Virus record (IMG/VR): IMGVR_UViG_3300036759_000092
Span: 1-49,501 of that record
Reading direction: 5' to 3' (one strand)
Source: a virus
DNA: 49,501 nucleotides
Shown: positions 128 through 48,653 of the stretch, in pieces
Numbering within the stretch: the first letter of the stretch is position 1
Layout of the letters: each line of letters starts with the position of its first letter
Translations under genes and position numbers: made by a program
Notes under the pieces: model-generated
Database searches by the model: none
What the model was told of the DNA's origin: nothing
The model's input: only the letters and a program-made list of their open reading frames with translations

Positions 128-355
128 CTTGTCAACCTCCATCAGCGTTGCCAGATACCCCATCACATCGAGGTGGTCTTCAGTCGTGGCGATTGAGAAG
201 TAGCGTCCGTTGGTCGTCCGGACGATGACGATCGGGTAGCCGTAGGACGAGTACGCGATGGTCGCGCTCTTCACCTTCGGGTGGTGGTTGAGATGCCTCC
301 CGATGGTGGTGACCTCTTGCTCAGTGAGTTTCTCGCGCTCGCGGCGCGGCGTCAT
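122..355 (-). CDS. Hypothetical protein, 77 aa
   Basis: I do not recognise this small basic protein. Residues about 28-60 look like a two-strand beta unit with a G-Y-P turn and an R-T-T-N-G-R-Y strand, resembling the small fold of its neighbour at 774-968. The start ATG overlaps the upstream stop as ATGA (352-355), indicating translational coupling. It is the last gene before the circular junction; downstream lies about 125 bp without genes, then the Rpf-like gene. Confidence 0.75.
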   Translation of the reverse strand: MTPRREREKLTEQEVTTIGRHLNHHPKVKSATIAYSSYGYPIVIVRTTNGRYFSIATTEDHLDVMGYLATLMEVDKR

Positions 356-777
356 CCTTGAGGCTTCCGGTAGGGCGTCATCGTGCCATCGGGGTTGAGC
401 ACCATCCCCATCGGCGTGCGTTGCCGATGGCGCACATCCCCCGACCCTACTGATTCGATGGCCTTGTTCTGGCGGCGCTGGCGCAGCGCGAAGACGAACT
501 CGTCGTCCCGGTCGTGATGCCAGAGCTTGCCGCCCATCTTCAGCAGCATCTTCTCGGCGCGGTCAACGACCTCCAGCGTCTCACCTATCGCCCACACGAC
601 CCAGTGGATCGGGTTCTCGGGCGGTCCCTTGGTGCGCCAGCAGGAGATATTGACTAGCTCCCTGTCGGCGCGCTCCCACGCCTTGCGCGACGTGGTCTCG
701 TCCGGGTAGTTGATCGCCGTCCAGAAGCGCCCGGTGTGAGGAATGAACAGCCGATGGTCCGGCCCGGCGTCCATCAT
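352..777 (-). CDS. Hypothetical protein, 141 aa
   Basis: No family recognised. The start at 777 was chosen because its ATG overlaps the upstream TGA as ATGA; the frame stays open further upstream, but that extension would lie inside the preceding gene. The protein is mixed alpha/beta with tryptophan-rich strands around residues 20-60 and a C-terminal P-D-G-T-M-T-P-Y tail resembling a short beta hairpin. It lies in a tightly coupled trio with the genes at 774-968 and 122-355. Confidence 0.75.
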   Translation of the reverse strand: MMDAGPDHRLFIPHTGRFWTAINYPDETTSRKAWERADRELVNISCWRTKGPPENPIHWVVWAIGETLEVVDRAEKMLLKMGGKLWHHDRDDEFVFALRQRRQNKAIESVGSGDVRHRQRTPMGMVLNPDGTMTPYRKPQG

Positions 778-968
778 CGCGTCACCGTCAAGATGCGCTT
801 GTTCGCAGCGTTCCGCACCTGGATGCGGCTCCACTGGCTGCTGCTGTCGAGCAGGAGGCGAGCGTGCTCGCGTCCTGTGCGGTAGTCAGCGGCGGTGCCG
901 ACGTTGACCTCTAGGCCGTCTGCCGCCCTAATGGCGACGAGCTTCACGCCGCCGTGCTTCGAGTGCAT
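774..968 (-). CDS. Hypothetical protein, 64 aa
   Basis: Unknown small protein with an alternating strand pattern (VKLVAIRAADG, LEVNVGTAADY) typical of small beta-rich phage proteins. An AAGGAGG box lies just 5' of the ATG at 968; a GTG/ATG pair at 998/995 would add about ten residues and is the alternative start. It is the first gene after the large hairpin at 1011-1059, so its transcript may depend on read-through or processing there. Confidence 0.7.
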   Translation of the reverse strand: MHSKHGGVKLVAIRAADGLEVNVGTAADYRTGREHARLLLDSSSQWSRIQVRNAANKRILTVTR

Positions 969-1010
969 GACCCTCCTTATATGGGATGTTGACATCACCC
1001 CTCACGCAGT

Positions 1011-1059
1011 CCGACCCCCCCTGGGGGCCACCTTGAATGGTGCCACCAGGAGGGGTCGG
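1011..1059. terminator. Long inverted repeat upstream of the 774-968 gene
   Basis: Arms 1011-1032 and 1039-1059 form an imperfect stem of about 20 bp around a six-base loop (TTGAAT). No uridine run follows it on the minus strand, so it may be a processing or regulatory stem instead of a classic intrinsic terminator. It fits the pattern of stem-loop followed by an AAGGAGGG box seen before many leftward genes here. Confidence 0.7.
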
Positions 1060-1080
1060 GTGTTTCGCCGAGCACGCTCC

Positions 1081-1099
1081 ATGCCGCAAACTGCGGCAT
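1081..1099. promoter_or_regulatory. Perfect 8-bp palindrome with 3-bp spacer
   Basis: ATGCCGCA-AAC-TGCGGCAT lies in the 1060-1141 gap downstream of the 1142-1639 gene. It could be an operator for a dimeric protein or a small transcript hairpin; no U-tract follows on either strand. I saw no second copy. Confidence 0.45.
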
Positions 1100-1141
1100 T
1101 CGCATTACGCGATAACGGCGCCGGCGCGTTTCTTGTAGTTT

Positions 1142-1639
1142 CTACCGGAACAGCGTCTCCAGGTCGGGCATCTGCTGGCTTGGCGTCAGCCCCTGGATGC
1201 GCGTGAGACAGCGCATGATCCGCGCCGAGGTGAGGGGCTCATCCTTCTCCCTCATCCAGCGCAGGCACACGCTGGCGAGCCGCGAGAGCTCCAGGTCCGA
1301 GCCGAGGAGCGGGTGCTGCTTCACGCCCCAGGCCCTCGCCCCGGACTGCGCGTTGTTCATCAGCGTGGTAACGCGACTCGCGTTGTAACTGAACTCCCAC
1401 AGCCGGGAATCCCGGTAGTTCTGCGGGGTGCTCGCCAGGGCGATGCGCCCAGGCTCGGTGATGAGCGGCCATTTCCCGCCCATGTTGGGGATCGTCACGT
1501 CGCGGCAATACTTCACGGCTGCCGCCAACTGACACGTCCCCATCTTGAGGCTCGACTGGATGGCTCGGCGGTTCTGCCAGTAGCCACGTTTCGGCTGAAG
1601 CGCCCAATAGAGCCGATGTGCATCTGCTGCGACCGACAT
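1142..1639 (-). CDS. Probable winged-helix DNA-binding protein, 165 aa
   Basis: Residues about 5-70 resemble a winged-helix unit: helices around Y11-L16 and R24-L31, a recognition-like helix with C-Q-L-A-A-A-V-K-Y, then a P-L-I-T-E-P-G-R wing like the L-T-x-x-G wing of phage regulators. The rest is helical. The start codon directly follows the upstream stop at 1640, so it is co-translated with the next gene. The function, perhaps regulation of the leftward operon, is inferred from fold features only. Confidence 0.6.
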   Translation of the reverse strand: MSVAADAHRLYWALQPKRGYWQNRRAIQSSLKMGTCQLAAAVKYCRDVTIPNMGGKWPLITEPGRIALASTPQNYRDSRLWEFSYNASRVTTLMNNAQSGARAWGVKQHPLLGSDLELSRLASVCLRWMREKDEPLTSARIMRCLTRIQGLTPSQQMPDLETLFR

Positions 1640-2407
1640 CTAGATGTTCAGTCCCTTCCTGACGTCATCGTCAGTCATGCGCTGAGCCTTGGCGAAATCC
1701 TCGAGATCGCTCACGGCCTGACGGATCTTGTCGAGCTTGAGGTCAAGCTCGCGCATGTTGTCGCTGCCCCACACGTCTGAGGACAGGTTGGCGAATGTCA
1801 CCTCCTTTGCCAGCTCGTGCGCCCGACGCAGGTTCCGGTACGCGTCGTTGAGCGTGTTCCACAGACGGCTCTGCGCAGAGTAGCCCGCACCGAACGTGTC
1901 GTCCGTGCGGCGGTCGGCCTGTCTGCGCGCATCCTCCTCGTGGCGGGCCTGTCGGTCAGTGACCTCCAGGTACACCTCGGGCTTCTCCATCAGCCCCTCG
2001 ATGATGTCCGCCTGCTCCTTCACAGGGCGCTGGCTGATGGTGTCGATGCCGTCCCCCTTGCTGCTGCGGATGGCACGGGTCGTTTCCTTGGTGCCGATGA
2101 GCTTGAGCGCATCTGACACGTCGTGTGTCTGGCCCCACGCCTCCTGGTGAACCGAAGGGGAGTAGCCGTCCATCCGCACACCAGGAGGGAACAGACCGGC
2201 CATCTGGCGCTGACGCTGGAGCCAACTGGGAGAGCGACCTCTCCAGCCAGCGATGTCCTTCAGCGTAAGAAACCCGGCGGCGGGCTTCTTACCTCTCTCG
2301 TCGCTGGTATTGGCGACCAGCCAGTCGCCAAGCGCCCACTTGTCCCTGGAGATACTGTCCTCCAGGGCCTCGTACTCGGCACGCAGCCGAGACTCATCCC
2401 TACTCAT
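1640..2407 (-). CDS. Hypothetical helix-turn-helix-containing protein, 255 aa
   Basis: The start at 2407 follows AGGAGGG with a 3-nt gap and a UUCG-capped hairpin (2423-2436). Residues about 45-75 (L-K-D-I-A-G-W-R-G-R-S-P-S-W-L-Q-R) look like a helix-turn-helix that would recognise DNA. The C-terminal two thirds are highly charged and helical, probably coiled coil (about 130-240). The architecture of an N-terminal HTH plus a long coil suits a phage regulator or ParB-like organiser, but I cannot name the family. Confidence 0.7.
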   Translation of the reverse strand: MSRDESRLRAEYEALEDSISRDKWALGDWLVANTSDERGKKPAAGFLTLKDIAGWRGRSPSWLQRQRQMAGLFPPGVRMDGYSPSVHQEAWGQTHDVSDALKLIGTKETTRAIRSSKGDGIDTISQRPVKEQADIIEGLMEKPEVYLEVTDRQARHEEDARRQADRRTDDTFGAGYSAQSRLWNTLNDAYRNLRRAHELAKEVTFANLSSDVWGSDNMRELDLKLDKIRQAVSDLEDFAKAQRMTDDDVRKGLNI

Positions 2408-2422
2408 AGGCCCTCCTATTCT

Positions 2423-2465
2423 GGGGCTTCGGCCCCTCACTGAATTCGGGCACCGCCTGGTGCCC
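2423..2465 (-). promoter_or_regulatory. Tandem hairpins and SD leader of the 1640-2407 gene
   Basis: Two perfect stems lie side by side: GGGGC-UUCG-GCCCC (2423-2436) and GGGCACC-GCCT-GGTGCCC (2448-2465). A third stem (CAGGGAC/GTCCCTG, 2524-2540) lies just past the lysin stop. Between stem and gene on the minus strand is CCCGAATTCAG, which also follows the hairpin ahead of the holin gene near 36.41 kb. Attenuation or RNA processing between the lysin and the downstream gene is likely. Confidence 0.6.
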
Positions 2466-2542
2466 CATTGACAGCGTACGCCAGCGATGCGTCGCTGCCT
2501 AGGGCAAGGAACTGCCCCATTTGCAGGGACTTTGTCCCTGGA

Positions 2543-3043
2543 TCAGACGTAGCGGCGGATGACCATGATGTCGCCGCGATAGTCGTACGGGAGGTAGTAC
2601 GGTCCCGATTCGCTGCCGTGGCTGATCACCATCGGCTTGCCGTTCCGCACGCCGACGATGATCGCGGTGTGCTTGCCCGGAGCGCCGCTCCCGTAGATCA
2701 CGCAGTCGCCGCGTAGGACGTTCTCCACGTGCTGGACGGGCTTCCCGTGGTTGAGCATCGTTCCCGTGTAGCCAGCCTTCCAGGCTGCGCCGTTCACCGT
2801 GTCGCGCACACCGAAGTGGTCCAGCCCGTTCCAGATGCACCACGTCGCCAGCGATGAGCAGTCGGCATAGTCCGGGCATTGATCCCGGTACGCCTTCAGG
2901 TCCTTGTCGATCCCTTCCCATCTACGTGAGCCCTGCGTGTAGTGGAGACGATCACGCCGGTTGTACGCGAGCCACGCCGCGTCGGCGATGAGCTCCCGCG
3001 CCTTGAGGCGATTGGTCTTGCTCAGCCCAGAGACGCTTGCCAT
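2543..3043 (-). CDS. Endolysin, NlpC/P60-type cell-wall peptidase, 166 aa
   Basis: A likely peptidoglycan hydrolase. A D-C-S-S nucleophile box at residues 61-64 and a K-H-T-A-I-I-V-G box with H125 give the Cys/His dyad of NlpC/P60 and CHAP peptidases, which cut peptide stems; a G-D-C-V-I-Y segment (112-117) precedes the histidine as usual for these folds. There is no signal peptide, so release would need a holin; the candidate holin is at 36167-36397. The start overlaps the upstream stop (TGATG, 3041-3045). No separate binding domain is visible, and at 166 aa this is a minimal single-domain lysin. Confidence 0.85.
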   Translation of the reverse strand: MASVSGLSKTNRLKARELIADAAWLAYNRRDRLHYTQGSRRWEGIDKDLKAYRDQCPDYADCSSLATWCIWNGLDHFGVRDTVNGAAWKAGYTGTMLNHGKPVQHVENVLRGDCVIYGSGAPGKHTAIIVGVRNGKPMVISHGSESGPYYLPYDYRGDIMVIRRYV

Positions 3044-3297
3044 CAGCGCCCGCCGAAGCCAGCGCCTCCGCCTGGCGGAATCGGTACGATGCCTGGCGGC
3101 GGGACCACCGATTCGACCGGCGCGGGGGCCTCCGGGTCGGCAGGCTGCTCCTCTTCCTCGTCCGGCTCGACCTCTTCCTTGTCGTCCTCGTCCGGGGTCT
3201 CCGGGGCGTCGGGCTCCTGCGTCTCGTCCTTGACCGGCTCGGCGGCGAGATCCTCGTCGTCGCTGGTGCTGGTGGTCGCCGCCTTCGTAGTGGCCAT
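3043..3297 (-). CDS. Acidic, proline-rich disordered protein, 84 aa
   Basis: The composition is dominated by Glu, Asp, Pro and Ala, with an A-T-T-K-A-A-T-T-S-T start and a glycine-rich end; it is almost certainly intrinsically disordered. AGGAG lies 5 nt before the ATG. It is coupled to the lysin start by TGATG. The role is unknown; a lysis-timing or chaperone role would be guesswork. Confidence 0.75.
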   Translation of the reverse strand: MATTKAATTSTSDDEDLAAEPVKDETQEPDAPETPDEDDKEEVEPDEEEEQPADPEAPAPVESVVPPPGIVPIPPGGGAGFGGR

Positions 3298-3333
3298 CGG
3301 TGCTCCTAAGCTCTGGGAGGACCAACGCTACAC

Positions 3334-4368
3334 CTATCGGGTGAATTGCCATGCTCGCTTGGTGAGCCTGAGCGGCACGTCGTCAGGCCCCTTGACGTAG
3401 GGGGCGATCCAGATCTGGCGATGCTCTCCCAAGCTCGCGTACCACTGGTTCCGCCAGTGTCCGCGGACGACGAAGCGGACCGTCAACCTGCGCCCCGTCG
3501 TCTCCATCTCCTCTTGGCCTTGCCGTCCGCGTCGCAGCGTGATCACAGTCACATCGTCAACCGGGCGCTTCTTCCTCTGGCTGTCACGTCTGAGCTGTCG
3601 CGGCAGACGGGCCTTGGTCGGGACGAGCTGGCTGCCGATGCGCCACATCGTCTGGATCAGGGAGGTCTGCTGGCGGGCACGCTCGCGCACATCTTCGAAG
3701 CTGTCCTCGGCGAGGATGTCGTACGCCTCCGGGTCGTCCAAGCTCTCGTAGCCGGGCTGTCCCCACGACCATTGCCACTGATGGACGATGCTGAACGGCA
3801 TGATCCTGCGGATCTCGTCCCTGCTGTGCACTGGCTCGGGGTCGTCCGGATGGCCCATCTCCAGCCTGGATGGGACGCCACGCTCATCCGCCAGGGCGAA
3901 CTCGTCATCGCAGTGGACGTAGAAGGCGATCCAGTAGGTGCCGACGCTGAGATCCTCGCTGTGGATCGGTAGCCACGCGACTGCGCGGACGGGGATCAGG
4001 CCGATGCCGCTGCGCCACGGATGCGTCTTGGTCACCGGCATATCGTCGATCAGCACCGGGCGCGGGAACAGGCAGAACCCACGCGGCGCGAACGGGTCGT
4101 TCGGCAGTAGCTTCTCCGGCTTCCACTTGGCGCGTGCGTCGTCGATGAGATCGGTCACGTCACTGCTGACGTAGATCGGCTCTGCCTCACGCAGCATCTC
4201 TAGCTGGATACCCGCCAGCACGCGGACATCCCGGCGGGCCTTCTCGGTGTGCTTCTCGTTCATCTCACCGAAGAAGCCGATCAGGTACTTGACCCCGATC
4301 TCCGACTGCGACCACTCCAAGATCTGCTGCTGCGAGATGTAGGCGTCCTCCCACCTCGCGTAGCGCAT
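3334..4368 (-). CDS. Conserved-type hypothetical protein, 344 aa
   Basis: A large cytosolic protein with no family I can name with confidence. The C-terminal part (about 285-344) contains the block V-R-G-H-W-R-N-Q-W-Y, then H-R-Q-I-W-I-A-P-Y-V-K-G-P, a pattern I associate with conserved hypothetical proteins of actinophages and actinobacteria. The start at 4368 overlaps the upstream stop (TGATG); a GTG one codon earlier is possible. It heads the small cluster that ends with the lysin. Confidence 0.75.
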   Translation of the reverse strand: MRYARWEDAYISQQQILEWSQSEIGVKYLIGFFGEMNEKHTEKARRDVRVLAGIQLEMLREAEPIYVSSDVTDLIDDARAKWKPEKLLPNDPFAPRGFCLFPRPVLIDDMPVTKTHPWRSGIGLIPVRAVAWLPIHSEDLSVGTYWIAFYVHCDDEFALADERGVPSRLEMGHPDDPEPVHSRDEIRRIMPFSIVHQWQWSWGQPGYESLDDPEAYDILAEDSFEDVRERARQQTSLIQTMWRIGSQLVPTKARLPRQLRRDSQRKKRPVDDVTVITLRRGRQGQEEMETTGRRLTVRFVVRGHWRNQWYASLGEHRQIWIAPYVKGPDDVPLRLTKRAWQFTR

Positions 4369-4556
4369 CACTCCACCGCGAACATCGCGTCGAAGCAGTA
4401 CTCACAGAGCCCGCTGATCTGGTACTCCCTGCGGCCCGCGTCGCTGTACCACCTCGCGGGCTTCTTACAGCGGGCGCAGATGCTCTTGGCCTGACACTCT
4501 GCGACGTAGCGCTTCCAGGCCTCCATGCTCTCCAGCTCGGGGTGCTCTTCAGCCAT
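4368..4556 (-). CDS. Small zinc-ribbon protein, 62 aa
   Basis: Two C-x2-C knuckles (C27/C30 and C51/C54) separated by about 20 residues make a four-cysteine zinc ribbon. The preceding helix (E7-A23) is amphipathic. The start overlaps the upstream gene by 8 nt. It is one of at least eight tiny cysteine-knuckle proteins in the leftward region; the binding partner is unknown. Confidence 0.8.
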   Translation of the reverse strand: MAEEHPELESMEAWKRYVAECQAKSICARCKKPARWYSDAGRREYQISGLCEYCFDAMFAVE

Positions 4557-4836
4557 CGGTGTCGATGGCGTCGCGGAAGATCTGCGCCACGCGCTCTGCG
4601 ACCTCGGCGCCTGGGATGTTGAGCTTCCCCGCCCAGTCGCTCTCCCAGTGGTCCGGGTCGCGCCAGGCGGCGAGGAACATCGTCACCCCGCCGATGGTGA
4701 TGTCGAGGTCGGTGTCGATGTTGTCCAGCACCGATTCGGCCAGCGCGGAGGCCGGGTCGCTCGTGTTGACGACGTACGCCCGATCGCGAAAGCCGATGCG
4801 GAAGGGGGCGTTGCAGATGTAGGAGAACTCAGCCAT
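4549..4836 (-). CDS. Hypothetical protein, 95 aa
   Basis: No family recognised. The N-terminal half is beta-rich (F-S-Y-I-C-N-A-P-F-R-I-G-F), and the C-terminal half is helical with G-A-E-V-A-E-R-V-A-Q-I-F. The ATG lies 8 nt inside the preceding gene, so translation is coupled. Confidence 0.7.
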   Translation of the reverse strand: MAEFSYICNAPFRIGFRDRAYVVNTSDPASALAESVLDNIDTDLDITIGGVTMFLAAWRDPDHWESDWAGKLNIPGAEVAERVAQIFRDAIDTDG

Positions 4837-4993
4837 CGGGGCGCTCCACTCGCCACGTCCTGGGCTTCCCGTTGGGCATGATCACGTTGACGTGGATCTC
4901 ACCGTTGACGTAGTGCTGCTCGATCACTCTTGCCTGCGCGTGCAGCAGGCGAGCGGCGAACTGCGTCGTGGTCATGGTCTTGGTCCTAGGCAT
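4829..4993 (-). CDS. Small hypothetical protein, 54 aa
   Basis: This frame begins at ATG 4993 after GGAGG with a 4-nt gap and overlaps both neighbours by 8 nt, the junction style used throughout this operon. The product is basic, with a helix (Q11-E25) followed by a beta hairpin (I-H-V-N-V-I-M-P-N-G-K). Function unknown. Confidence 0.65.
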   Translation of the reverse strand: MPRTKTMTTTQFAARLLHAQARVIEQHYVNGEIHVNVIMPNGKPRTWRVERPDG

Positions 4994-5297
4994 CCTTCCT
5001 CCGGCCCTTGGCCTCCTGGCGGTCCATCTCCTCCATCTGGCCCTCGGCGCGGCCCTGCTCGTACGCCTCGTTGAAGACCATCTCGCGCACGATGTCGATC
5101 AACGCGCAGATGGCCGGGTTCTCGTACCAGTAGACCTGGCCGTCGCAAGTCTCGCCGCCGGGGATGTCGAGCCCCTTCGCCTCGACCCTTGAGATCAGGG
5201 CATCCCAGAAGTGCTCCTCAGCGATGTCCTGCGGGCGGTTGCCTGGGATGTCGTTGGTGCTCACGCCGGGCGGGAGATCCCATCCGAATGTGCTCAT
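4986..5297 (-). CDS. Hypothetical protein, 103 aa
   Basis: Begins MSTFGWDLPPGV, a tryptophan/PPGV head often seen in small actinophage proteins. It ends in a charged helix (about 70-103) with many Glu, Gln and Arg residues. The start at 5297 follows AAGGAGG and overlaps the upstream TGA as ATGA. Function unknown. Confidence 0.75.
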   Translation of the reverse strand: MSTFGWDLPPGVSTNDIPGNRPQDIAEEHFWDALISRVEAKGLDIPGGETCDGQVYWYENPAICALIDIVREMVFNEAYEQGRAEGQMEEMDRQEAKGRRKDA

Positions 5298-5449
5298 TCC
5301 TGCTCTTCCTCCTTGTGGGTGGTGTCCAGCGCGTCGGCAACGCGACGCAGCTCGTTGGCGATGATCGCCAGATCCTTCTCGATGCCTTCGAGGATTGCTG
5401 GCAGACGCTCCACGCTGCGGAGCGTCCTCAGCTCTTGGACTGTCGTCAT
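5294..5449 (-). CDS. Small coiled-coil protein, 51 aa
   Basis: A single continuous amphipathic helix is predicted from residues 4 to 45, with leucine and isoleucine at heptad spacing (L7, L10, L16, I19, I23, L27). It is coupled at both ends by ATGA overlaps (5446-5449 and 5294-5297). Probably a small dimerising adaptor; function unknown. Confidence 0.7.
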   Translation of the reverse strand: MTTVQELRTLRSVERLPAILEGIEKDLAIIANELRRVADALDTTHKEEEQE

Positions 5450-5823
5450 CGCTCGTAATGGCGCTCCGCCCAGGCGACGGCCTCATCGGCGCAGTCTTCG
5501 CAGGCCTCCATCTCGGGCTGCGGCGGCGTCTCGTTGTCGCCCGGGTAGGCGGGGATGGTTCCCAGGGCGTGCTCGGGCACGACGTGGCCGCGCTCGCACA
5601 CCTTCGCCGCCTCGCCCGGTCCCAGCACGTTGACCCTCAGGTCGAGCGCCGAGTCCATGTAGTGCCGGACCCAGTCTTCGACGCTGCGGCTCCCGCCCTC
5701 CTGCCCCTGGATGGGGATCAGGATCTGCATGGCGACGCTGACGTACATCACGTCCCCCGGGTCCATGGGGATCCAGTGGGTCGGGTTCTCCGGGTCGTAG
5801 CGACCCAGATCGTCGATGTTCAT
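5446..5823 (-). CDS. Hypothetical protein with Cys/His pairs, 125 aa
   Basis: The C-terminal part carries C-E-R-G-H and C-E-D-C groups that could bind one zinc ion; the N-terminal half is mixed alpha/beta with the segment D-V-M-Y-V-S-V-A-M-Q-I-L-I-P. It is coupled to the upstream gene by ATGA (5820-5823). Function unknown. Confidence 0.7.
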   Translation of the reverse strand: MNIDDLGRYDPENPTHWIPMDPGDVMYVSVAMQILIPIQGQEGGSRSVEDWVRHYMDSALDLRVNVLGPGEAAKVCERGHVVPEHALGTIPAYPGDNETPPQPEMEACEDCADEAVAWAERHYER

Positions 5824-6092
5824 GGCAGGCTACCCTCGCTCCAGGTCATGTCGGTGTCCTGCAGATCTGCCAGCAGGACGGGGCGGTTCTCATCCACCCA
5901 GCCGACCTCGTCGTACTCCTGGCCTCCTGCCAGGCGCTCGATCCTACCGAGGAACGTGGTCGCTACCAGCTCCACGTTCGCCGGGTCTTGCAGCCAGGAG
6001 GCGAGCTCCTGCTGCTGCGTGAACTCCGCCACCACTCGCAGCTCAACCTCCAGCGCGAGATGGAGCTTCACGCTCGCTTGTGCATCAGCCAT
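5820..6092 (-). CDS. Hypothetical protein, 90 aa
   Basis: The start at ATG 6092 follows an exact ACCCAAAGGAGGG box with an 11-nt gap, which is somewhat long. The first half is an amphipathic segment (V-K-L-H-L-A-L-E-V-E-L) and the second half is acidic. It is the first gene after the hairpin and promoter-like elements at 6124-6191, so it probably starts a transcription unit running to 3334. Confidence 0.75.
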   Translation of the reverse strand: MADAQASVKLHLALEVELRVVAEFTQQQELASWLQDPANVELVATTFLGRIERLAGGQEYDEVGWVDENRPVLLADLQDTDMTWSEGSLP

Positions 6093-6100
6093 TGTGATGC

Positions 6101-6191
6101 GTCCCTCCTTTGGGTTCGGTGGAGGCCGCACGAAGCGGCCCCCCCATTATGCGAAGCCTACAGCAGCGATACCTCGCTGTGTTTCGGTGTT
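6101..6191 (-). promoter_or_regulatory. Promoter-like element, hairpin and start-associated box
   Basis: Read on the minus strand: the block AACACCGAAACACAGCGA, then TAGGCT (6155-6160) exactly 31 nt from the first base of that block. Next comes a GGCCGC/GCGGCC stem (6124-6140), then ACCCAAAGGAGGG before the ATG at 6092. The same block and spacing recur at 48577-48613, and ATCGCTGCTGTAGGCT recurs near 11.01-11.03 kb. TAGGCT is a plausible actinobacterial -10 hexamer. Confidence 0.55.
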
Positions 6192-6195
6192 TGGG

Positions 6196-6375
6196 TTAGA
6201 TGCTCTGCCTCGGGCACGGCTCCATCGGCCAGTTGCAGGTGACGCAGAGCATCGGGTCGCACGGCTCCGGGATCGGGCGTCCGTAGCCGCAGTTCAGGCA
6301 CACGACCAGGACTGCCGTCCTGTCGAAGTGCGTGCCGCGACAGGCCGGACACGGCTTCACGATGAGTGGCTCCAT
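6196..6375 (-). CDS. Small multi-cysteine zinc-binding protein, 59 aa
   Basis: Starts at ATG 6375 after AGGAGG (4-nt gap) and ends in TAA at 6196-6198. It contains C-P-A-C (9-12), C-L-N-C (26-29), C39 and C-V-T-C (44-47), enough for one or two zinc sites. The alternative frame over the same bases has no cysteine pattern and no ribosome site. Likely a zinc ribbon adaptor; target unknown. Confidence 0.7.
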   Translation of the reverse strand: MEPLIVKPCPACRGTHFDRTAVLVVCLNCGYGRPIPEPCDPMLCVTCNWPMEPCPRQSI

Positions 6376-6383
6376 TACCCCTC

Positions 6384-6629
6384 CTACTCGTAGAGCTCCG
6401 TCATCGGGGAGCCGCAGGTCTGGCAGCGGAACATCCTGGCGGGATTGCCGTCAGCGTTCGCCTTCCGCTGCTGGTCGATGGAGTACGCGACCCCGCTGAC
6501 CGGGAGGCTCATCCCGAAGGTCAGGATCGCGGCCGTCGCGTGCCAGCTATGTCGCGTGGTCCTGCCCGCGCACAGTCGCCGACAGTTGCAGATCGGGCAG
6601 TGCCCGGATCTCATAACGAGGCGTCCCAT
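6384..6629 (-). CDS. Cysteine-knuckle protein with hydrophobic middle, 81 aa
   Basis: C-P-I-C (11-14) with C16 and C20 at the N-terminus and C-Q-T-C near residue 69-72 flank a hydrophobic stretch (about 30-50). The stretch could be a membrane helix or a buried core helix. A zinc ribbon split by a hydrophobic insert is the likeliest reading. Its ribosome site is weak. Confidence 0.65.
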   Translation of the reverse strand: MGRLVMRSGHCPICNCRRLCAGRTTRHSWHATAAILTFGMSLPVSGVAYSIDQQRKANADGNPARMFRCQTCGSPMTELYE

Positions 6630-6632
6630 GTC

Positions 6633-6884
6633 TCAGCCTCGCGGCTCCACGGCGACGTGGAAGTCGTGCGCTCGGTACGTGAACTGGATGCTCATGCCCT
6701 CGCGCTCGCGGGCGTTCTCCTGGACGTACTTGGCGATCGACTCGAACGACGCCTCAAGCGGCGACTTGTCGCCGTCCGGCCCGAGGTAGACGCGGTCGAT
6801 CACCTCGCGGCGCTCGATGAGGATGGTGTCCTCATCTGCTGTCTCGTCGTGCCAGGTGTCTGGCGACGGCTTCTTCACTGCCAT
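6633..6884 (-). CDS. Hypothetical protein, 83 aa
   Basis: The start at 6884 is fixed by AAAGGAGG with a 4-nt gap (CCCCAAAGGAGGGG box). Residues 25-83 alternate strands and one helix; the end resembles a ferredoxin-like beta-alpha-beta unit. Function unknown. It is preceded by the long hairpin at 6919-6973. Confidence 0.75.
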   Translation of the reverse strand: MAVKKPSPDTWHDETADEDTILIERREVIDRVYLGPDGDKSPLEASFESIAKYVQENAREREGMSIQFTYRAHDFHVAVEPRG

Positions 6885-6918
6885 GTCCCCTCCTTTGGGG
6901 TAGTGATCCTGCTCGTTT

Positions 6919-6973
6919 GTGAACAGGCGCAGGGGCGACATCGTGACCAGATGCCGCCCCCGCGTCTGCTCAC
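6919..6973. promoter_or_regulatory. 23-bp imperfect inverted repeat
   Basis: Arms 6919-6941 and 6951-6973 match at 19 of 23 positions, and most mismatches can form G.U pairs. The stem sits between two leftward genes and ends about 35 nt before the start-associated box of the 6633-6884 gene. It has the size and place of the ESAS elements of Cluster K mycobacteriophages; RNA stem and protein-binding site are both possible. Confidence 0.75.
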
Positions 6974-6974
6974 A

Positions 6975-7211
6975 TCACCAGCTTCCGTAGCGGATCACGC
7001 CCGCGTGGTAGAGCGCCTCGATCCTGGGCTTGATGATGGGCTGGATGCGCCCGACCCAGTCGTCACGCGGGACGTCGAACGTCCAGGTCCAGTTGCCGAA
7101 GACGCGGCTTTCCGACTCCGGGACCGCGAGTCCGGTGCCATCCAGCACGCCCGCGATCAAGTCGCCGGGGCGCGGATCGCCGGGCGGGCAATCCAGTTCG
7201 ATGCTTTCCAT
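6975..7211 (-). CDS. Hypothetical protein, 78 aa
   Basis: The start at 7211 follows ACCCGAAGGAGGG. The protein contains the segments F-G-N-W-T-W-T-F-D-V-P and W-V-G-R-I-Q-P-I-I-K-P-R, and ends with two small aromatic residues like its neighbours (G-S-W). No family recognised. Confidence 0.75.
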   Translation of the reverse strand: MESIELDCPPGDPRPGDLIAGVLDGTGLAVPESESRVFGNWTWTFDVPRDDWVGRIQPIIKPRIEALYHAGVIRYGSW

Positions 7212-7240
7212 CGTGCTACTCCCTCCTTCGGGTTGGGTAT

Positions 7241-7287
7241 GACCACAGACAGGGAGCGCGTCGCACCCGCGCTCCGCGTCTCTGGTC
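7241..7287. promoter_or_regulatory. 19-bp imperfect inverted repeat
   Basis: Arms 7241-7259 and 7269-7287 match at 16 of 19 positions with a nine-base loop. It lies immediately after the stop of the 7289-7522 gene and before the start-associated box of the 6975-7211 gene, the same arrangement as at 6919-6973. Confidence 0.75.
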
Positions 7288-7288
7288 G

Positions 7289-7522
7289 CTACCAGCTCCC
7301 GCCTCGGCGGACCAGCACCATCGTGCAGTCGTGCGCGAAGTTGACCAGACGCTCGTCGTCCTCGTGGATCGGCTTGCTCAGCTCCGCGTGGGCGCAACTG
7401 CGGAACTCGTCCAGATCGATGTTTGAGAATTGGTTCAGGAAGTGACGCTGGAGCTGGTCGCCCTCCAGCGCCTCCCACTTCTCAAAGGTCAGCCCGAACG
7501 GGCTGGTGTTCGGCTCGTACAT
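7289..7522 (-). CDS. Hypothetical protein, 77 aa
   Basis: Its start overlaps the upstream stop (TGATG). The first half is helical with F-E-K-W-E-A-L-E-G and N-Q-F-S-N-I-D-L-D-E-F. The C-terminal V-L-V-R-R-G-G-S-W is close to the end of the next gene's product (R-Y-G-S-W), hinting at a shared minor motif. Function unknown. Confidence 0.75.
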   Translation of the reverse strand: MYEPNTSPFGLTFEKWEALEGDQLQRHFLNQFSNIDLDEFRSCAHAELSKPIHEDDERLVNFAHDCTMVLVRRGGSW

Positions 7523-7764
7523 CACGGCTTCAGCCAGCCCATCCTGCGGGCGTGATCCAGGGAGCAGATGCGCTCCCCGTTGAGCAGCTCGCGGGTGTCG
7601 TCCTCGCGGCTGAGGTAGAACCATCCCTGCGAATCCGGTGCTGTCAGGATCGTGTGGCAGTGCATCGTGTAATGCGAGAAGACACGGCTGCCGACGTTCA
7701 CCGTCACACCGTCTGCGGTCGTTATTGCCGCGTTCGCGCTCCCAGGCGCTCTATCGCCATCCAT
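7522..7764 (-). CDS. Hypothetical protein, 80 aa
   Basis: Beta-rich small protein (V-T-V-N-V-G-S-R-V-F-S-H-Y-T-M-H) that may be an SH3-like or OB-like barrel. V-T-V-N-V-G resembles V-N-V-G-T in the 774-968 product, so the two may be distant paralogues. Ribosome site weak (AGAAAGA). It is preceded by two hairpins at 7784-7842. Confidence 0.7.
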   Translation of the reverse strand: MDGDRAPGSANAAITTADGVTVNVGSRVFSHYTMHCHTILTAPDSQGWFYLSREDDTRELLNGERICSLDHARRMGWLKP

Positions 7765-7783
7765 GTGATGATCTTTCTGCTCA

Positions 7784-7842
7784 GCACTCCCCGTTGGAGT
7801 GCGGTTGACGCGAGCATCAACGTGGACGCTCGCCTCAACCGC
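7784..7842. promoter_or_regulatory. Two adjacent inverted repeats
   Basis: GCACTCC/GGAGTGC (7784-7802) is a perfect 7-bp stem. Beside it, arms 7801-7818 and 7825-7842 match at 16 of 18. Both lie in the gap between the 7888-8148 and 7522-7764 genes. No uridine tract follows. Confidence 0.7.
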
Positions 7843-7887
7843 GCTCGCACGTAGCGGCGCGGTCGCATATCAGGACGCATGCGTCGT

Positions 7888-8148
7888 TTAGACGACCCCG
7901 CTCTGGCGGAGCCATTGGCGGTAGTGATCCTCTCCCTGGAGGTACTCCAGGAGATTGCGGGCACTGGTCGCTCGCGCCCACTGTGGAGCGAAGTCGGTCG
8001 TGTTGTGGAACAGATCGGGCTGCTCGGTGTGCATCGCGGTCAGCAGGTCCTGCATCCTCGCGTCCAGCTCACGCTGGGCGTTCGCGATCTGCGCTGCCTC
8101 GTACACATAGGCGTCGGTGCCCGTCTGTCCCGTAGGGGTACGGAACAT
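7888..8148 (-). CDS. Hypothetical protein, 86 aa
   Basis: The start at 8148 follows ACCCAGAGGAGG with a spacing of about ten bases; the frame is open further upstream but that part is low-complexity and overlaps the hairpin region. The product is mostly helical (A-N-A-Q-R-E-L-D-A-R-M-Q-D-L-L-T-A-M) with an aromatic C-terminal half. Function unknown. Confidence 0.7.
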   Translation of the reverse strand: MFRTPTGQTGTDAYVYEAAQIANAQRELDARMQDLLTAMHTEQPDLFHNTTDFAPQWARATSARNLLEYLQGEDHYRQWLRQSGVV

Positions 8149-8193
8149 GAGGTGGGTTCCTCCTCTGGGTAGGTATGTGGGTCCCCGGTCTCG

Positions 8194-8230
8194 GGGCGTC
8201 AACGTCCGCAGGGCACGGACGTTCACGTCC
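8194..8230. promoter_or_regulatory. 15-bp imperfect inverted repeat (perfect 8-bp core)
   Basis: Core AACGTCCG (8201-8208) and CGGACGTT (8216-8223), extended outward to 15 bp with two mismatches. It stands before the start-associated box of the 7888-8148 gene, another instance of the stem-plus-box layout. Confidence 0.7.
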
Positions 8231-8279
8231 TGGGGCAGGGGGGAGGGGGGCCGGATCGCACCCGGCCCCGGGTTCCCTC

Positions 8280-8717
8280 TCAGGCGGCGATGTCGCCGCT
8301 GGCCTCCAGCTCGGCGCGGGCCATCTCGTAGGCGACCACGCCCTTCAGCCAGAGGTGGCCCTTCTTCACCGGGTGGGTCTTGGTCCACTCGGCCCAGGCG
8401 GTCTCGTAGGCGGTGTTCAGGAGCCCCTTGGCGTCGTTCGACTTGCCCTTCCGTGCGATCGGCTTCAGCTCGTCCGTCGTGTACTCGCCCATGGCGTCGA
8501 GGAACGTCTGCCCCTCGGGCGAGCCCAGGAAGGACTCGTAGCTGGCCACCTGCGCGAGCGACATCGGGTTCACACCCATGAGGTCGGCCTGCGCCGCACG
8601 GGCACGGATCTTCTCGTGCACCGTCTTGGCAATCGTCGTCTGATCGCTGTCCTGCTGGTCGGGGCTCCCGGCCCCTTCGTCCTTTGCCCAGACGATCGTG
8701 GGGTACGGGAACTGCAT
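8280..8717 (-). CDS. Hypothetical protein, 145 aa
   Basis: ATG 8717 lies nine bases after the exact ACCCAAAGGAGGG box; a GTG at 8726 would overlap that box and is less likely. The protein is largely alpha-helical and alanine-rich, with no membrane segment. It is the longest product in this stretch of small genes, and its own leader suggests strong early expression. Function unknown. Confidence 0.75.
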   Translation of the reverse strand: MQFPYPTIVWAKDEGAGSPDQQDSDQTTIAKTVHEKIRARAAQADLMGVNPMSLAQVASYESFLGSPEGQTFLDAMGEYTTDELKPIARKGKSNDAKGLLNTAYETAWAEWTKTHPVKKGHLWLKGVVAYEMARAELEASGDIAA

Positions 8718-8772
8718 ATCAACCACCCTCCTTTGGGTGCCGCATGACGCGGGCGCAGCGGATGTCTGGAGA

Positions 8773-8789
8773 CGCGGGTGACCCCCGCG
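8773..8789. promoter_or_regulatory. Short hairpin upstream of the 8280-8717 gene
   Basis: CGCGGG-TGACC-CCCGCG, a perfect 6-bp stem within GC-rich sequence between the start-associated box and the palindrome at 8818-8835. Confidence 0.45.
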
Positions 8790-8817
8790 CCCGGCCCCTG
8801 AGTGGACCGTACTGCCC

Positions 8818-8835
8818 GACTGCGCAAGCGCAGTC
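8818..8835. promoter_or_regulatory. Perfect 18-bp operator-like palindrome
   Basis: GACTGCGC-AA-GCGCAGTC lies in the 8718-8940 gap between a leftward gene and a rightward candidate gene. On the minus strand its end merges with TAGACT, a plausible -10 hexamer, so a repressor bound here could block leftward transcription. I saw no second copy and no repressor gene is recognisable. Confidence 0.5.
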
Positions 8836-8940
8836 TACACCGCCCCGGGCGCCCGAGCACCCAGGCGTGCGCCAGAGCGCGCCTGTTTCCCCATGGCTAC
8901 GGACATCCCGCGCTGGTGGACATAGGCCCGGTGAGGATAT

Positions 8941-9168
8941 ATGCGCGAGTTTTGGAACGCCCCAGAGCGCGAAGAGCGGAGGGCGCTGCGAGAGGACCGC
9001 ACCGCAGACGTAGATGGTAGCCCCCTCCCCGAGATACCGATCTCCGCGGTGTGGTTCTGCTCTCGGCGCACTGGGACCCTTGGTCTTACCTCGCCTACCC
9101 GACGCGATGCCCCTCTGATGACGACCGCTCATGCCGCCAACGGGATGTGCCGCGCCTGCATCGCGTGA
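8941..9168 (+). CDS. Candidate rightward small Cys-containing protein, 75 aa
   Basis: This frame begins ATG after GTGAGG and has about 73% G/C at third positions, as expected for coding sequence here. The C-terminal half has V-W-F-C-S-R-R-T-G and N-G-M-C-R-A-C-I, resembling a compact zinc ribbon. It is opposite in direction to all genes around it, and its stop is 7 bases from that of the convergent 9176-9403 gene. If real it forms an isolated regulatory island with the palindrome upstream. I am only moderately sure it is translated. Confidence 0.5.
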   Translation: MREFWNAPEREERRALREDRTADVDGSPLPEIPISAVWFCSRRTGTLGLTSPTRRDAPLMTTAHAANGMCRACIA

Positions 9169-9175
9169 CGTTCGG

Positions 9176-9403
9176 TCAGCGCGTGGGCGTGCGCCTGTCG
9201 AGCTGCGTGACCGCAGACTCGATCAGGTCTTCGCGACCGGCCAAACGACCCAGTCGTCTCAGCGTGGCTCGCTTGCGTCCTCGGCCCGGCAGGTCACTAC
9301 GCACCAGCGTGGCGTAGGATCTCAGCTCTCTTCCGAGGATCGCAGCGGCACCGCTCGGTTTGACCCCGATGATCTGCTCATCCATCATCGGGCGGTACGT
9401 CAC
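9176..9403 (-). CDS. Hypothetical small basic protein, 75 aa
   Basis: GTG 9403 was chosen because GGGAG lies five bases upstream and because the putative minus-strand promoter (TTGACG, 17-nt spacer, GCATAC at 9525-9520) excludes a start near 9532. The frame is open to about 9532, so an N-terminal extension cannot be ruled out. The product has an HTH-like segment (G-V-K-P-S-G-A-A-A-I-L-G-R-E-L-R-S-Y) and an Arg-rich helix, so DNA binding is plausible. Confidence 0.55.
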   Translation of the reverse strand: MTYRPMMDEQIIGVKPSGAAAILGRELRSYATLVRSDLPGRGRKRATLRRLGRLAGREDLIESAVTQLDRRTPTR

Positions 9404-9497
9404 ATGTGCTCCCAGCGATGGGACTGTGCCTGCCAGCGCGTGCAACCACGAAATCTGCGCTGTGCAGGTGACTTGTAACGATTTACCAGCGATCTGC

Positions 9498-9526
9498 TGC
9501 GATGCCGCCTGGGCATCTGGTATGCT
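9498..9526 (+). promoter_or_regulatory. Extended -10 promoter candidate, rightward, overlapping a leftward one
   Basis: TGGTATGCT (9518-9526) is an extended -10 element with a weak -35 (TGCGAT). On the opposite strand the same bases give GCATAC, 17 nt after TTGACG. Transcription may therefore diverge here, leftward into 9176-9403 and rightward into the hairpin at 9570-9595. Confidence 0.4.
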
Positions 9527-9527
9527 C

Positions 9528-9600
9528 GGCACTTCGGGAAGTCGTCAATAGGCGTCATCTCAGTGTCTAGAGGGGAGCCTACCAGGGCTCCTCTCGCTTT
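9528..9600 (+). ncRNA. Possible short structured transcript ending in a strong hairpin
   Basis: No gene is visible in 9527-9672. A transcript from the 9518-9526 element would contain ACTTC/GAAGT and then a 10-bp stem (9570-9579 with 9586-9595, one G.U) followed by GCTTTGTG, a fair terminator. The hairpin also works on the minus strand, directly downstream of the 9673-9927 gene, so it may simply be a bidirectional terminator. Confidence 0.35.
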
Positions 9601-9672
9601 GTGCGGGCAGATCCGCTACGTGCGGAGATGTTTTGCTACGACGCTCGTCATCACGTCTCATAGGGCCACCCG

Positions 9673-9927
9673 TCAGTCCACCCGCCAGTCATCGACGAGC
9701 TGCTCGAACGTGGGGTAGTGAATCCCCTGCAAACCGGCGAGTATGTCGCCCAAGCTGCCGCTCGGGAGATCGTGGATGTTGGTGAACCAGACGTGGCAGC
9801 AACCGGGGATCATGACGCCCGCGGCGCCGTAGTGCCGATGGACGACGGGCAGGCACGGCCAGTAGAGCCAGAGGCTGGGATCGCGCATGAATCTGAGATC
9901 GTCCTCGCGCTCGTCCTGCTGGGTCAT
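9673..9927 (-). CDS. Hypothetical protein, 84 aa
   Basis: Aromatic-rich small protein (S-L-W-L-Y-W-P-C-L-P) resembling short conserved actinophage proteins with a W-P-x-L-P core; it has two adjacent cysteines (C-C-H). The start at 9927 overlaps the upstream TGA (ATGA). Function unknown. Confidence 0.75.
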   Translation of the reverse strand: MTQQDEREDDLRFMRDPSLWLYWPCLPVVHRHYGAAGVMIPGCCHVWFTNIHDLPSGSLGDILAGLQGIHYPTFEQLVDDWRVD

Positions 9928-10178
9928 CGTCCCTGCTCCCATAGCCCCGCGATGCGCGCCGCGTGCCGCCCGATCCAGCGGAGGCGCTCGTCCTCATTCA
10001 CCTGCAAATCGTGGGATTCCGGTTCCAGCGCGGCGATCTGCCGCAGCGTCTTTTCCGCCGCGTCGCGCTCGGCCCGCACCAGCTGCACGCTCTCATCGAT
10101 AAAGGGGCGGCGGAGCGCATCGTCCCCCAGCGCAACCGCGACCCGCTGGAGCCAGCATTGGCTCGCGTGGTTGCTCAT
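9924..10178 (-). CDS. Hypothetical helical protein, 84 aa
   Basis: One long amphipathic helix (residues about 25-55, rich in Glu, Arg, Ala, Leu) followed by a second helix with R-L-R-W-I-G-R-H-A-A-R-I-A. Probably a helical hairpin or coiled coil. The start at 10178 overlaps the upstream stop as ATGA. Function unknown. Confidence 0.75.
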   Translation of the reverse strand: MSNHASQCWLQRVAVALGDDALRRPFIDESVQLVRAERDAAEKTLRQIAALEPESHDLQVNEDERLRWIGRHAARIAGLWEQGR

Positions 10179-10567
10179 GTCACCCTGTCCCCTCGTGCCT
10201 CGGCGCGCCATTGCGCCACCAGATAGGGATCGCGTGTCTCCCAGGCGTGGAGGACGTCGGGGTGGACGTTGAGCCACCAGCTCGCCGGGGGGATGCCGAC
10301 GACGAACGCGACCCCGGGCCGCAGATCGTGCACCGTGTTCACCATCTCCTCCCACGTCGGCACGCGCCCGGCGTTCGTCTTCGGGTCTGCCCAGCGTATT
10401 GAGAGATGCCAGCGCACATCCTCCACGGCCACCGGCTCGCGTCCCATCAGGGCCAGTCTGCCGTCCCTGTGCGCGTACGCTCGCGGGGCGGGGGTGGTCC
10501 CCATGTTCTGCTCCCAGGTCTGGAGAAAGTCGGGTGTCAACACCATCTGCCGCCATCCGTCATGCAT
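10175..10567 (-). CDS. Conserved-type hypothetical protein, 130 aa
   Basis: Layout H-L-S-I-R-W, then P-T-W-E-E-M, then G-V-A-F-V-V-G-I-P-P, then V-H-P-D-V-L-H-A-W-E resembles a small alpha/beta phage domain whose members share an R-D/W start and an H-x-W end. I recognise the type, not a function. GAGGA precedes ATG 10567. It is coupled downstream by ATGA. Confidence 0.75.
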   Translation of the reverse strand: MHDGWRQMVLTPDFLQTWEQNMGTTPAPRAYAHRDGRLALMGREPVAVEDVRWHLSIRWADPKTNAGRVPTWEEMVNTVHDLRPGVAFVVGIPPASWWLNVHPDVLHAWETRDPYLVAQWRAEARGDRVT

Positions 10568-10609
10568 AGGTAAATCCTCGTTTTTCGTTTCCGTACCGCT
10601 CCATTCCGC

Positions 10610-10867
10610 TCACTCCGACGCACAGAGCGAGTTCGCCTTCGTGCGTGCTTCGGTATATGCGCGGGCTAGCTCCCTCTGGAAGCGCTCCACGCCCCAGCGG
10701 AAGTCCACCGTCCGCACCACGCACACGCGGCGACCTCGTTGCACGCAGACCTCATAGAAGTCGTCGTGCACGCGCTGCGTCACGCGCCAGCGCCTCCGGG
10801 GCGGGCGGGCGCACCAGTAGCCACCCGCGAACCCGATGCAGATCCCGATCAGCATGATGATCAGCAT
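10610..10867 (-). CDS. Small single-pass membrane protein, 85 aa
   Basis: Residues 2-18 are a hydrophobic helix with G-x-x-x-G spacing, followed by an Arg-rich stop-transfer patch (P-P-R-R-R-W-R) and a cytoplasmic domain. This is the first leftward gene after the divergent region, with two stacked AAAGGAGG boxes before its ATG, so it is probably made early and strongly. Membrane position and early expression would suit a superinfection-exclusion or host-takeover role, but nothing proves that. Confidence 0.75.
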   Translation of the reverse strand: MLIIMLIGICIGFAGGYWCARPPRRRWRVTQRVHDDFYEVCVQRGRRVCVVRTVDFRWGVERFQRELARAYTEARTKANSLCASE

Positions 10868-11095
10868 CTCGTCCTCCTTTCCCCTCCTTTGGGATGGGTA
10901 AGCGAGGCGAGCCCGGGGTCACAGAGCATCGCCAAAGGAGGGTAGGCGAACACCCTCCGGACTCGCCTCATACCATTCCCGCGACCCAAGGCGCGGGCTG
11001 GCACCTTTGAGCCTACAGCAGCGATGTTTCGGCTGCTTCCGTCCCCTCGGACCTCTATGCTCCAGGGCATGCTTATGTCACAGGAGCTGGAGGGG
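10868..11095. promoter_or_regulatory. Divergent control region between early and late blocks
   Basis: 228 bases with no gene. It contains the start-associated box CCCAAAGGAGGGG of the leftward gene and an inverted repeat (10905-10916 with 10957-10968, one mismatch) enclosing a second, opposite-facing CAAAGGAGGG. It also contains minus-strand TAGGCT (10010-offset: bases 11010-11015) within ATCGCTGCTGTAGGCT, a 16-mer shared with 6155-6170. A rightward TATGCT (11056-11061) is the only late -10 candidate and lacks a clear -35. Confidence 0.6.
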
Positions 11096-20566: not shown

Positions 20567-20580
20567 AAAGGAACCACCTG

Positions 20581-48523: not shown

Positions 48524-48653
48524 GTGTCCCTCCTTTGGGTGAGCATGGCGACGGACATACCGCCCGCCGCACTTAGAGCCTAACGCACGGACTTGTCGCC
48601 GTGGTTCGGTGTTGGCGGGCGACCGGCGGAGCCCCAGCCGAGATCCGCCGGTC
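48524..48653 (-). promoter_or_regulatory. Hairpin, promoter motif and start-associated box
   Basis: Minus-strand order: perfect 10-bp stem (48644-48653 with 48621-48630), the block AACACCGAACCACGGCGA, TAGGCT (48577-48582) exactly 31 nt from the start of that block, then ACCCAAAGGAGGG and the GTG of the SLOG gene. Same elements and spacing as 6101-6191. Confidence 0.6.

Follow-up and report, generated by a model that had tools for sequence, protein, structure and literature searches.

Several leftward genes in IMGVR_UViG_3300036759_000092, the record of an uncultured bacterial virus (IMG/VR; positions 1 to 49,501, here called the window, meaning the whole 49,501-nucleotide stretch that was analysed) have one recurring word, the box ACCCAAAGGAGGG, at the Shine-Dalgarno (SD) position, often with an inverted repeat further upstream. 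The question raised by this locus is whether the box belongs with the start-associated sequence (SAS) of cluster K mycobacteriophages, and what it does. As described in passages of PMC3203893, SAS is a 13-bp word (GGGATAGGAGCCC) at the SD position of non-structural genes, mostly in intergenic gaps over 50 bp, and its extended form (ESAS) consists of 17-bp inverted repeats whose arms have a consensus within a genome. SAS has been without an assigned function since that 2011 account (PMC3203893) and is still called "ill-defined" in a passage from 2024 (PMC11373665). The box appears best read as a structure rather than as a fixed word: a CCC-AAAGGA-GGG mini-hairpin that would carry the SD core in its loop. 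The proposal that the box is such a hairpin, and that ribosomes would start afresh on each cistron bearing it, is made with moderate confidence.

At zero or one mismatch, the window contains six copies of ACCCAAAGGAGGG, all on the minus strand, where 0.04 are expected from 100 dinucleotide shuffles, none of which reaches six. These close copies precede the leftward starts 6092, 6884, 7211, 8717, 10867 and 48522; the outer triplets are CCC/GGG in all six, and the distance from the end of the box to the start is 3-10 nucleotides in five and 14 nucleotides in the sixth (10867). At up to three mismatches the whole window yields 14 matches against 11.2 expected (23/100 shuffles reach 14), which is chance level; therefore only the close copies count. 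The eight starts at which the sequence-only reading had placed the box or a close variant, together with start 968, have the following sites.

971..985, minus strand: box-like SD of start 968, CCC-ATATAAGGA-GGG, with a longer loop; no match to the box at up to three mismatches.
2411..2428, minus strand: SD of gene 2407, AGAATAGGAGGG, with only the AGGAGGG core in common with the box; folds into a different hairpin.
6103..6115, minus strand: box and SD-loop hairpin of start 6092, CCC-AAAGGA-GGG, exact; folds alone (-3.8 kcal/mol) and in context.
6887..6900, minus strand: box and SD-loop hairpin of start 6884, CCCC-AAAGGA-GGGG, a one-mismatch box (6888-6900); folds alone and in context.
7221..7233, minus strand: box and SD-loop hairpin of start 7211, CCC-GAAGGA-GGG, one mismatch; folds alone.
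8158..8170, minus strand: degenerate box of start 8148, two mismatches, two pairs possible at most.
8724..8739, minus strand: box and SD-loop hairpin of start 8717, CACCC-AAAGGA-GGGTG, five pairs; exact box at 8726-8738.
10882..10894, minus strand: box of start 10867, the first gene of the leftward block, one mismatch; 14 nucleotides upstream, with a second SD following.
48528..48540, minus strand: box and SD-loop hairpin of start 48522, CCC-AAAGGA-GGG, exact; folds in context.

The sequence-only reading was largely right in its observation and overall is partly confirmed: close copies stand at six of its eight starts, 8148 has a two-mismatch copy, and 2407 has no match at up to three mismatches. 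Because a nearer second SD (AAAGGAGGA) lies between the box of 10867 and the start, that box is not the immediate ribosome-binding site. The claim that late genes lack the box held, in that no copy precedes a rightward structural gene and none of the three plus-strand matches at up to three mismatches (10930, 14823, 36723) lies before a called rightward gene; "early" and "late" are labels inferred from gene content, and the genes are those of a simple codon-usage caller, not of an annotation pipeline. The rightward block (11-35 kb) consists of structural genes, among which terminase, portal and protease were assigned by PHROGs/Pfam, and the leftward blocks (35-49.5 kb and 0-10.9 kb) consist of small genes, mostly without an assigned family. 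A real gap separates the box genes from the gene upstream of each; most other leftward genes overlap or abut a neighbour. The ends of the record form a 127-base terminal direct repeat, and therefore the genome is probably complete and gene 48522 would lie near gene 968.

Within the box, only AAAGGAGG is a match for the anti-SD of 16S rRNA, to which the CCC arm is not complementary. When folded alone, boxes form the mini-hairpin with energies of -3.8 to -8.5 kcal/mol. At 6884 an additional C on one arm is matched by an additional G on the other; box arms hardly vary within the window. Rfam gave zero matches above the gathering score. The variation that is informative comes from the closest relative, G001 (52,037 bases; terminase 79% and portal 76% identical), in which the loop is kept while the stems differ between genes (GAGTC-AAAGGA-GACTC, GACTC-AAAGGA-GAGTC, GACCC-ATAGGA-GGGTC, CGGCTC-AAAGGA-GGGCCG and TGTCTC-ACAGGA-GGGACA). 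Six of 20 leftward ANAGGA starts in G001 have at least four Watson-Crick pairs, compared with 0.65 expected when the 5' flanks are permuted (0/2000 permutations reach six), although 50339, which is among these six, runs antisense to the capsid gene and is unlikely to be a start. With any AGGA, a stem of at least five and four loop sizes, the G001 count is 8 of 90 versus 2.8 expected (6/1000). The protein of gene 8717 is 33% and 41% identical to those of G001 38498 and 39890 (BLAST E 4e-11 and 5e-10), and the hairpin is present before all three homologues with three different stems: CACCC/GGGTG at 8717, GACCC/GGGTC at 38498 and GAGTC/GACTC at 39890. Random, uncompensated variation of the arms among relatives had been named in advance as the outcome that would speak against an expression code; for the box, the arms vary between the window and G001 with compensation, and their joint change in the relative suggests a structural rule behind the motif.

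The same conclusion can be approached from an alignment of nine window and eleven G001 sites, placed in one register with no choice by stem. Among these 20 sites, 63.0% of cells are paired versus 53.8% when shuffled (3/500), and covariation is 0.301 versus 0.162 when shuffled (1/500), with slid registers giving 0.055-0.163. A 13-site set (83.1% paired versus 68.3%) was set aside as biased because its G001 members had been picked for having a stem; the 20-site set adds back 968 and 2407 of the window and 34055, 35301, 37522, 39421 and 42662 of G001. Both sets include G38894, which has no ATG, GTG or TTG start within range.

Beyond this pair of phages, viral contigs were scanned for CCCAAAGGAGGG followed by ATG, the sites being clustered by downstream protein with one kept per cluster; the three pattern scans are samples. 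Among the matches listed, 43 of 84 CCCAAAGGAGGG sites have a Watson-Crick pair at the positions immediately outside the word (21.1 expected; 0/5000 permutations), as G-C in 16, T-A in 11, A-T in 10 and C-G in 6; further out, z does not exceed 1.8. For the control GGGAAAGGAGGG (GGG-AAAGGA-GGG), whose arms do not pair, the matches listed give 25 of 80 versus 19.0 expected (z 1.6). In contig G011, which was chosen for having several differing stems, at least three pairs occur at 4 of 16 sites versus 0.56 expected.

Several results weigh against reading the box as a hairpin. The window stems are mostly bare CCC/GGG (3 bp, about -4 kcal/mol), permutation of arms within the window gives a weak signal (p about 0.04), and the count over any AGGA with a stem of at least five and four loop sizes is at chance level in the window (2 of 67), because the window stems are short. 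The minimum-energy structure of the full leader contains the SD hairpin in four of nine cases in the window and four of seven in G001; the 7221 hairpin is absent from the minimum-energy fold of its longer leader, start 8148 is without a usable stem, and 5 of 11 G001 sites are without a hexaloop stem. Retention of the hairpin between homologues is frequent and not universal, since the pair 8148/39421 has a usable hexaloop hairpin on neither side, 48522 has a hairpin and its G001 homologue has none, and the pair 968/34055 has only the longer-loop form, and that only in the window. Among the matches listed for GGGAAAGGACCC (GGG-AAAGGA-CCC), the fourth pair shows no extension (15 of 63 versus 16.2 expected), and viral starts in general (1258 sites) carry no SD-hairpin signal; stem extension at CCCAAAGGAGGG starts with none in general therefore points to a short hairpin in a subset of phage starts, not to a general rule. 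In segments of six cluster K phages, 81 of 104 ATAGGAG sites near starts have GGG/CCC. The 23 others comprise three that are fully compensatory, 12 that keep two pairs, four that keep one and four that keep none, and of the three compensatory sites just one, that of Pixie 42 (GTAC/GTAC), coincides with an annotated start. The compensatory hairpin of Pixie 38 (L171:2493-2541) precedes an ATG that is in frame and internal to the gene as annotated, and therefore the annotated start of gene 38 may be too far upstream; in Aminay, the hairpin is 5' of the regular SAS that belongs to gene 49. Support in cluster K is mixed, because the deviations are mostly not compensatory and only one of the three compensatory sites is at an annotated start. 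For the structural reading, G001 and the viral sample give good support and the window weaker support, with a mixed result from cluster K.

If the box is an SD mini-hairpin, the following mechanism can be proposed. A stem of 3-6 bp would close an A-N-A-G-G-A hexaloop within about 10 nucleotides of the start codon, at leftward non-structural genes that are uncoupled from the upstream gene. The hairpin would form in the mRNA and hold the SD core single-stranded in an exposed loop; the exposed loop would keep the G+C-rich leader, including the long upstream hairpin, from burying the SD; and ribosomes would initiate anew on each such cistron, opening the short stem as they do so. The long hairpins between stop codon and box, which are unrelated in sequence, would insulate cistrons by protection or processing of mRNA ends and would not be operators of a specific protein. 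From the sequence we infer a ribosome-binding site that would be presented either to ribosomes or to a trans-acting factor.

The second of these possibilities, in which the hairpin is an operator read in trans, is unlikely; the factor would be an RNA-binding protein or endoribonuclease, from the phage or its host, that recognizes GGA(G) in the closed loop and, like T4 RegB and RegA, represses or degrades early mRNAs. The constant loop core with variable stems and the restriction of the sites to leftward non-structural genes are what such an operator would look like. The CsrA loop is ANGGAN, from which the register of the box hexaloop is one base off. Among the proteins of the window phage and G001, neither CsrA, whose targets carry GGA in a hairpin loop, nor RegB nor a ParE/RelE-type family was found at E<=10, and a Pfam search of 30 window protein entries found no recognizable RNA-binding domain. 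The GGAG of T4 RegB sites is present in the boxes with the RegB nuclease itself absent at E<=10, and the boxes of cluster EF phages, in the published passages, carry GGAC, not GGAG. T4 RegB needs GGA unpaired and the next G constrained (PMC3014915, in part); by analogy, the window hairpins would offer a RegB-like presentation of GGA, a likeness only, since no nuclease was found.

Also unlikely is that the box is an unusually strong SD copied between uncoupled genes, with CCC as a hitch-hiker and no hairpin needed. Such copying would account for the fact that the box genes are the uncoupled ones and for the near-invariance of the arms within the window. It does not account for G001, where the flanks change but remain complementary, or for the unrelated viruses, where the flanking pair covaries (43 of 84 among the matches listed) and does not do so significantly in the control with the same SD.

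The inverted repeats upstream of the boxes have to be considered separately from the SD hairpins. Four of the five that the sequence-only reading listed are recovered by a gapless search, and the fifth (10905-10968) is a nested hairpin in the minimum-energy fold, described below. The others, with two more, are the following.

1011..1059, minus strand: long hairpin upstream of gene 968, 16/18 pairs; z -3.5.
6121..6145, minus strand: hairpin before the box at 6103, found by folding and new beyond the earlier list.
6918..6974, minus strand: long intercistronic hairpin from gene 6975-7211 to gene 6884, arm 25, 21/25 Watson-Crick, loop 7; z -6.5.
7241..7287, minus strand: long intercistronic hairpin before the box at 7221, 17/20 pairs, loop 7; z of the region -3.9.
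8194..8230, minus strand: intercistronic hairpin before the box at 8158, found by gapless search and folding; z of the whole gap -4.3.
48621..48653, minus strand: inverted repeat downstream of the preceding stop codon and some 80 nucleotides from the box at 48528, 10/10 pairs.

Structured leaders, defined by z below -2 in the 80 nucleotides upstream of the SD, were counted in the window and in G001, respectively, at 8 of 23 and 10 of 25 leftward starts preceded by a gap of at least 60, at 0 of 31 and 2 of 22 coupled leftward starts, and at 2 of 7 and 0 of 6 gapped rightward starts. The proteins of 6884 and G001 36871 are related at E 0.002, and the hairpins upstream of the two genes have the lower stem sequence in common and an upper stem that is different yet paired. 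Six more distant terminase relatives (G004-G009) yielded no equivalents of the leftward box genes and few SD hairpins. Intrinsic terminators (G+C stem followed by a T run) oriented leftward were not found in 1-11100, the four that were found all being on the plus strand (5.0 expected).

Three further observations concern G001. Its minus strand contains five copies of CAATCCCG, of which four (35339, 36909, 38581, 39928) are directly 3' of a long intercistronic hairpin and 5' of an SD hairpin. A tRNA-like gene predicted by ARAGORN with the four-base anticodon gtta (L010:9894-9967, minus strand) has its end immediately 5' of the SD hairpin that belongs to G001 27873. At 20579 and 29954 on the minus strand, stems of 12-13 bp with loop GGAGGA or GAGGA stand directly before GTG (putative starts).

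It is quite improbable that a sequence-specific protein acts on the long inverted repeats as DNA, in the manner of ESAS-like operators or promoters, with the box as a separate ribosome-binding site. The arms of the repeats have no consensus (mean best 9-mer identity 5.71 versus 5.67 shuffled) and therefore they are not ESAS; the ESAS half-site pair itself is at chance in the window (7 versus 9.2 expected), and the spacing from repeat to box at 6884, 7211 and 8148 is 7-17 nucleotides, too short for an intervening promoter. RNA-strand bias is absent among the mismatches of the repeats (16 G-U, 12 A-C), as DNA sites would predict; the mismatches therefore do not separate action as DNA from action as RNA. 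DNA sites would also be in keeping with the SigA-like promoters held by the ESAS of Adephagia (PMC11373665, in part) and with a promoter-like repeat upstream of three leftward genes of the window.

2473..2488, minus strand: promoter-like repeat ATCGCTGNNGTASGCT upstream of 2407, exact copy.
6155..6170, minus strand: promoter-like repeat ATCGCTGNNGTASGCT upstream of 6092, exact copy.
11010..11025, minus strand: promoter-like repeat ATCGCTGNNGTASGCT upstream of 10867, exact copy.

At up to two mismatches, ATCGCTGNNGTASGCT is found three times versus 0.74 expected (7/100 shuffles reach three), always upstream of gapped leftward genes. TASGCT within these repeats resembles a -10 box.

The first leftward gene, 10867, has a leader of its own kind, with two features.

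10905..10968, minus strand: nested leader hairpin of gene 10867, found by folding; z -1.1, energy not below shuffles.
10930..10942, minus strand: anti-box in and beside the apical loop of the leader hairpin, exactly complementary to the box over 11 nucleotides; plus-strand match CGCCAAAGGAGGG.

G001 and G002 have nested hairpins at the corresponding position, with ACCCUCC or ACCCCUCC close to the tip. Seven of the ten best duplex partners of the leader loop among gene starts are 8717, 6884, 7211, 6092, 48522, 10867 and the box-like 968. With shuffled loops, the number of duplexes below -10 kcal/mol is at least as high in 23/300 cases in the window and 114/300 in G001, and the G001 loop has no preference for hairpin genes. 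That this leader hairpin regulates, its loop UACCCUCCUUU pairing with boxes in cis (10882) or, once the leader is processed into an RNA of its own, in trans, is very doubtful, for the exact complement, the seven box or box-like partners and the nested hairpins in G001 and G002 are set against the cheapness of complementarity to a purine-rich SD, matched by the shuffles, a leader whose transcription is putative and a window energy not below shuffles; the predicted anti-box leader is kept as a lead.

The remaining observations concern relatives and neighbouring genes. No near-identical DNA was found among the phage records searched, no relative of the terminase was confirmed in the species genomes searched, and a search for further homologues of the 8717 protein found only those of G001. 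The predicted fold of that protein has a predicted local distance difference test (pLDDT) score of 72 and no PDB match at E<=0.001. The leftward gene at 35071-35856 (minus strand) has Gly-Pro-rich collagen-like repeats and matches tail fibre and collagen-like PHROGs, and a second leftward gene with such repeats, at 45618-46244 (minus strand), was recognized by eye only.

In passages of PMC3014915, mRNA structure in the initiation region promotes or regulates initiation at T4 genes 25 and 38 and at RegB sites, as is proposed for the window; the hairpin of genes 25 and 38 sits between SD and AUG and shortens the spacing, whereas the loop of the window hairpin is the SD core. The ompA-type 5' stabilizer stem-loop upstream of the ribosome-binding site (PMC7148126, in part) is a model for the long hairpins, although those of the window sit between cistrons.

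The likeness to cluster K that the sequence-only reading proposed stands as to layout, with a word at the ribosome-binding site, non-structural genes only, real gaps, complementary outer triplets and inverted repeats upstream; it fails for an ESAS-like element, the window repeats being without common arms. That reading was also right that the box word differs from SAS: GGGATAGGAGCCC at up to three mismatches is at chance in the window (20 versus 18.9 expected), its best matches are four with two mismatches (9585, 11931, 31517, 41259), the most that a cluster K copy allows, and none with fewer, and none of these is at a box gene. The window stem is CCC/GGG with loop AAAGGA, whereas the cluster K stem is GGG/CCC with loop ATAGGAG. 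Because the word test and the ESAS consensus test both fail, the window system is not the cluster K SAS, yet to judge from its sequence it would work like one. Its early-gene code may have evolved independently, as the sequence-only reading suggested, or may have an origin in common with SAS; no trans-acting protein for it was found.

The cluster K word folds when isolated, and the outer symmetry GGGNNNNNNNCCC with its AGGAG core is pointed out in PMC3203893, whose passages leave the function open and see few grounds for an mRNA hairpin formed by the ESAS repeats. In the Microbacterium phages of cluster EF, the SAS GGGAAAGGACCCC stands at the ribosome-binding site of ten genes, with an unclear role and an ESAS centred on GTAGAG, according to passages of PMC7302621; the segment of AnnaSerena that was searched has eight starts with GGG-AAAGGA-CCC (or CCT), and the published count for the whole genome is ten (PMC7302621, in part). 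Seven of nine ANAGGA starts in L425 (G015, a 20 kb viral contig) are GGG-AAAGGA-CCC, that is, many cluster EF-like SAS. A plan of stem, SD loop and stem is not stated in passages of PMC3203893 or PMC7302621, nor in the titles and abstract openings found, which is not proof of its being unpublished. Reading the SD in a loop with exchangeable stems turns the unexplained SAS word into a testable structural hypothesis, and searches with a fixed consensus word miss most members in phages such as G001, because there the stem differs from gene to gene. A further extension, itself improbable, would make the K SAS, the EF SAS and the window box versions of one control element that recurs in phages, the SD-in-loop mini-hairpin. 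Its loop would be constant and its stem free, and a factor produced in the course of infection, either a phage protein or an anti-box leader RNA, would read the loop and so switch the whole non-structural set at translation. The window and cluster EF have in common an AAAGGA hexaloop closed by three G-C pairs, with the polarity of the stem inverted (six of six close copies in the window have CCC before and GGG after the loop), and the likeness would be one of plan; GGGATAGGAGCCC of cluster K and GGGAAAGGACCCC of cluster EF both fit that plan, and a common structural plan is shown in unrelated phages.

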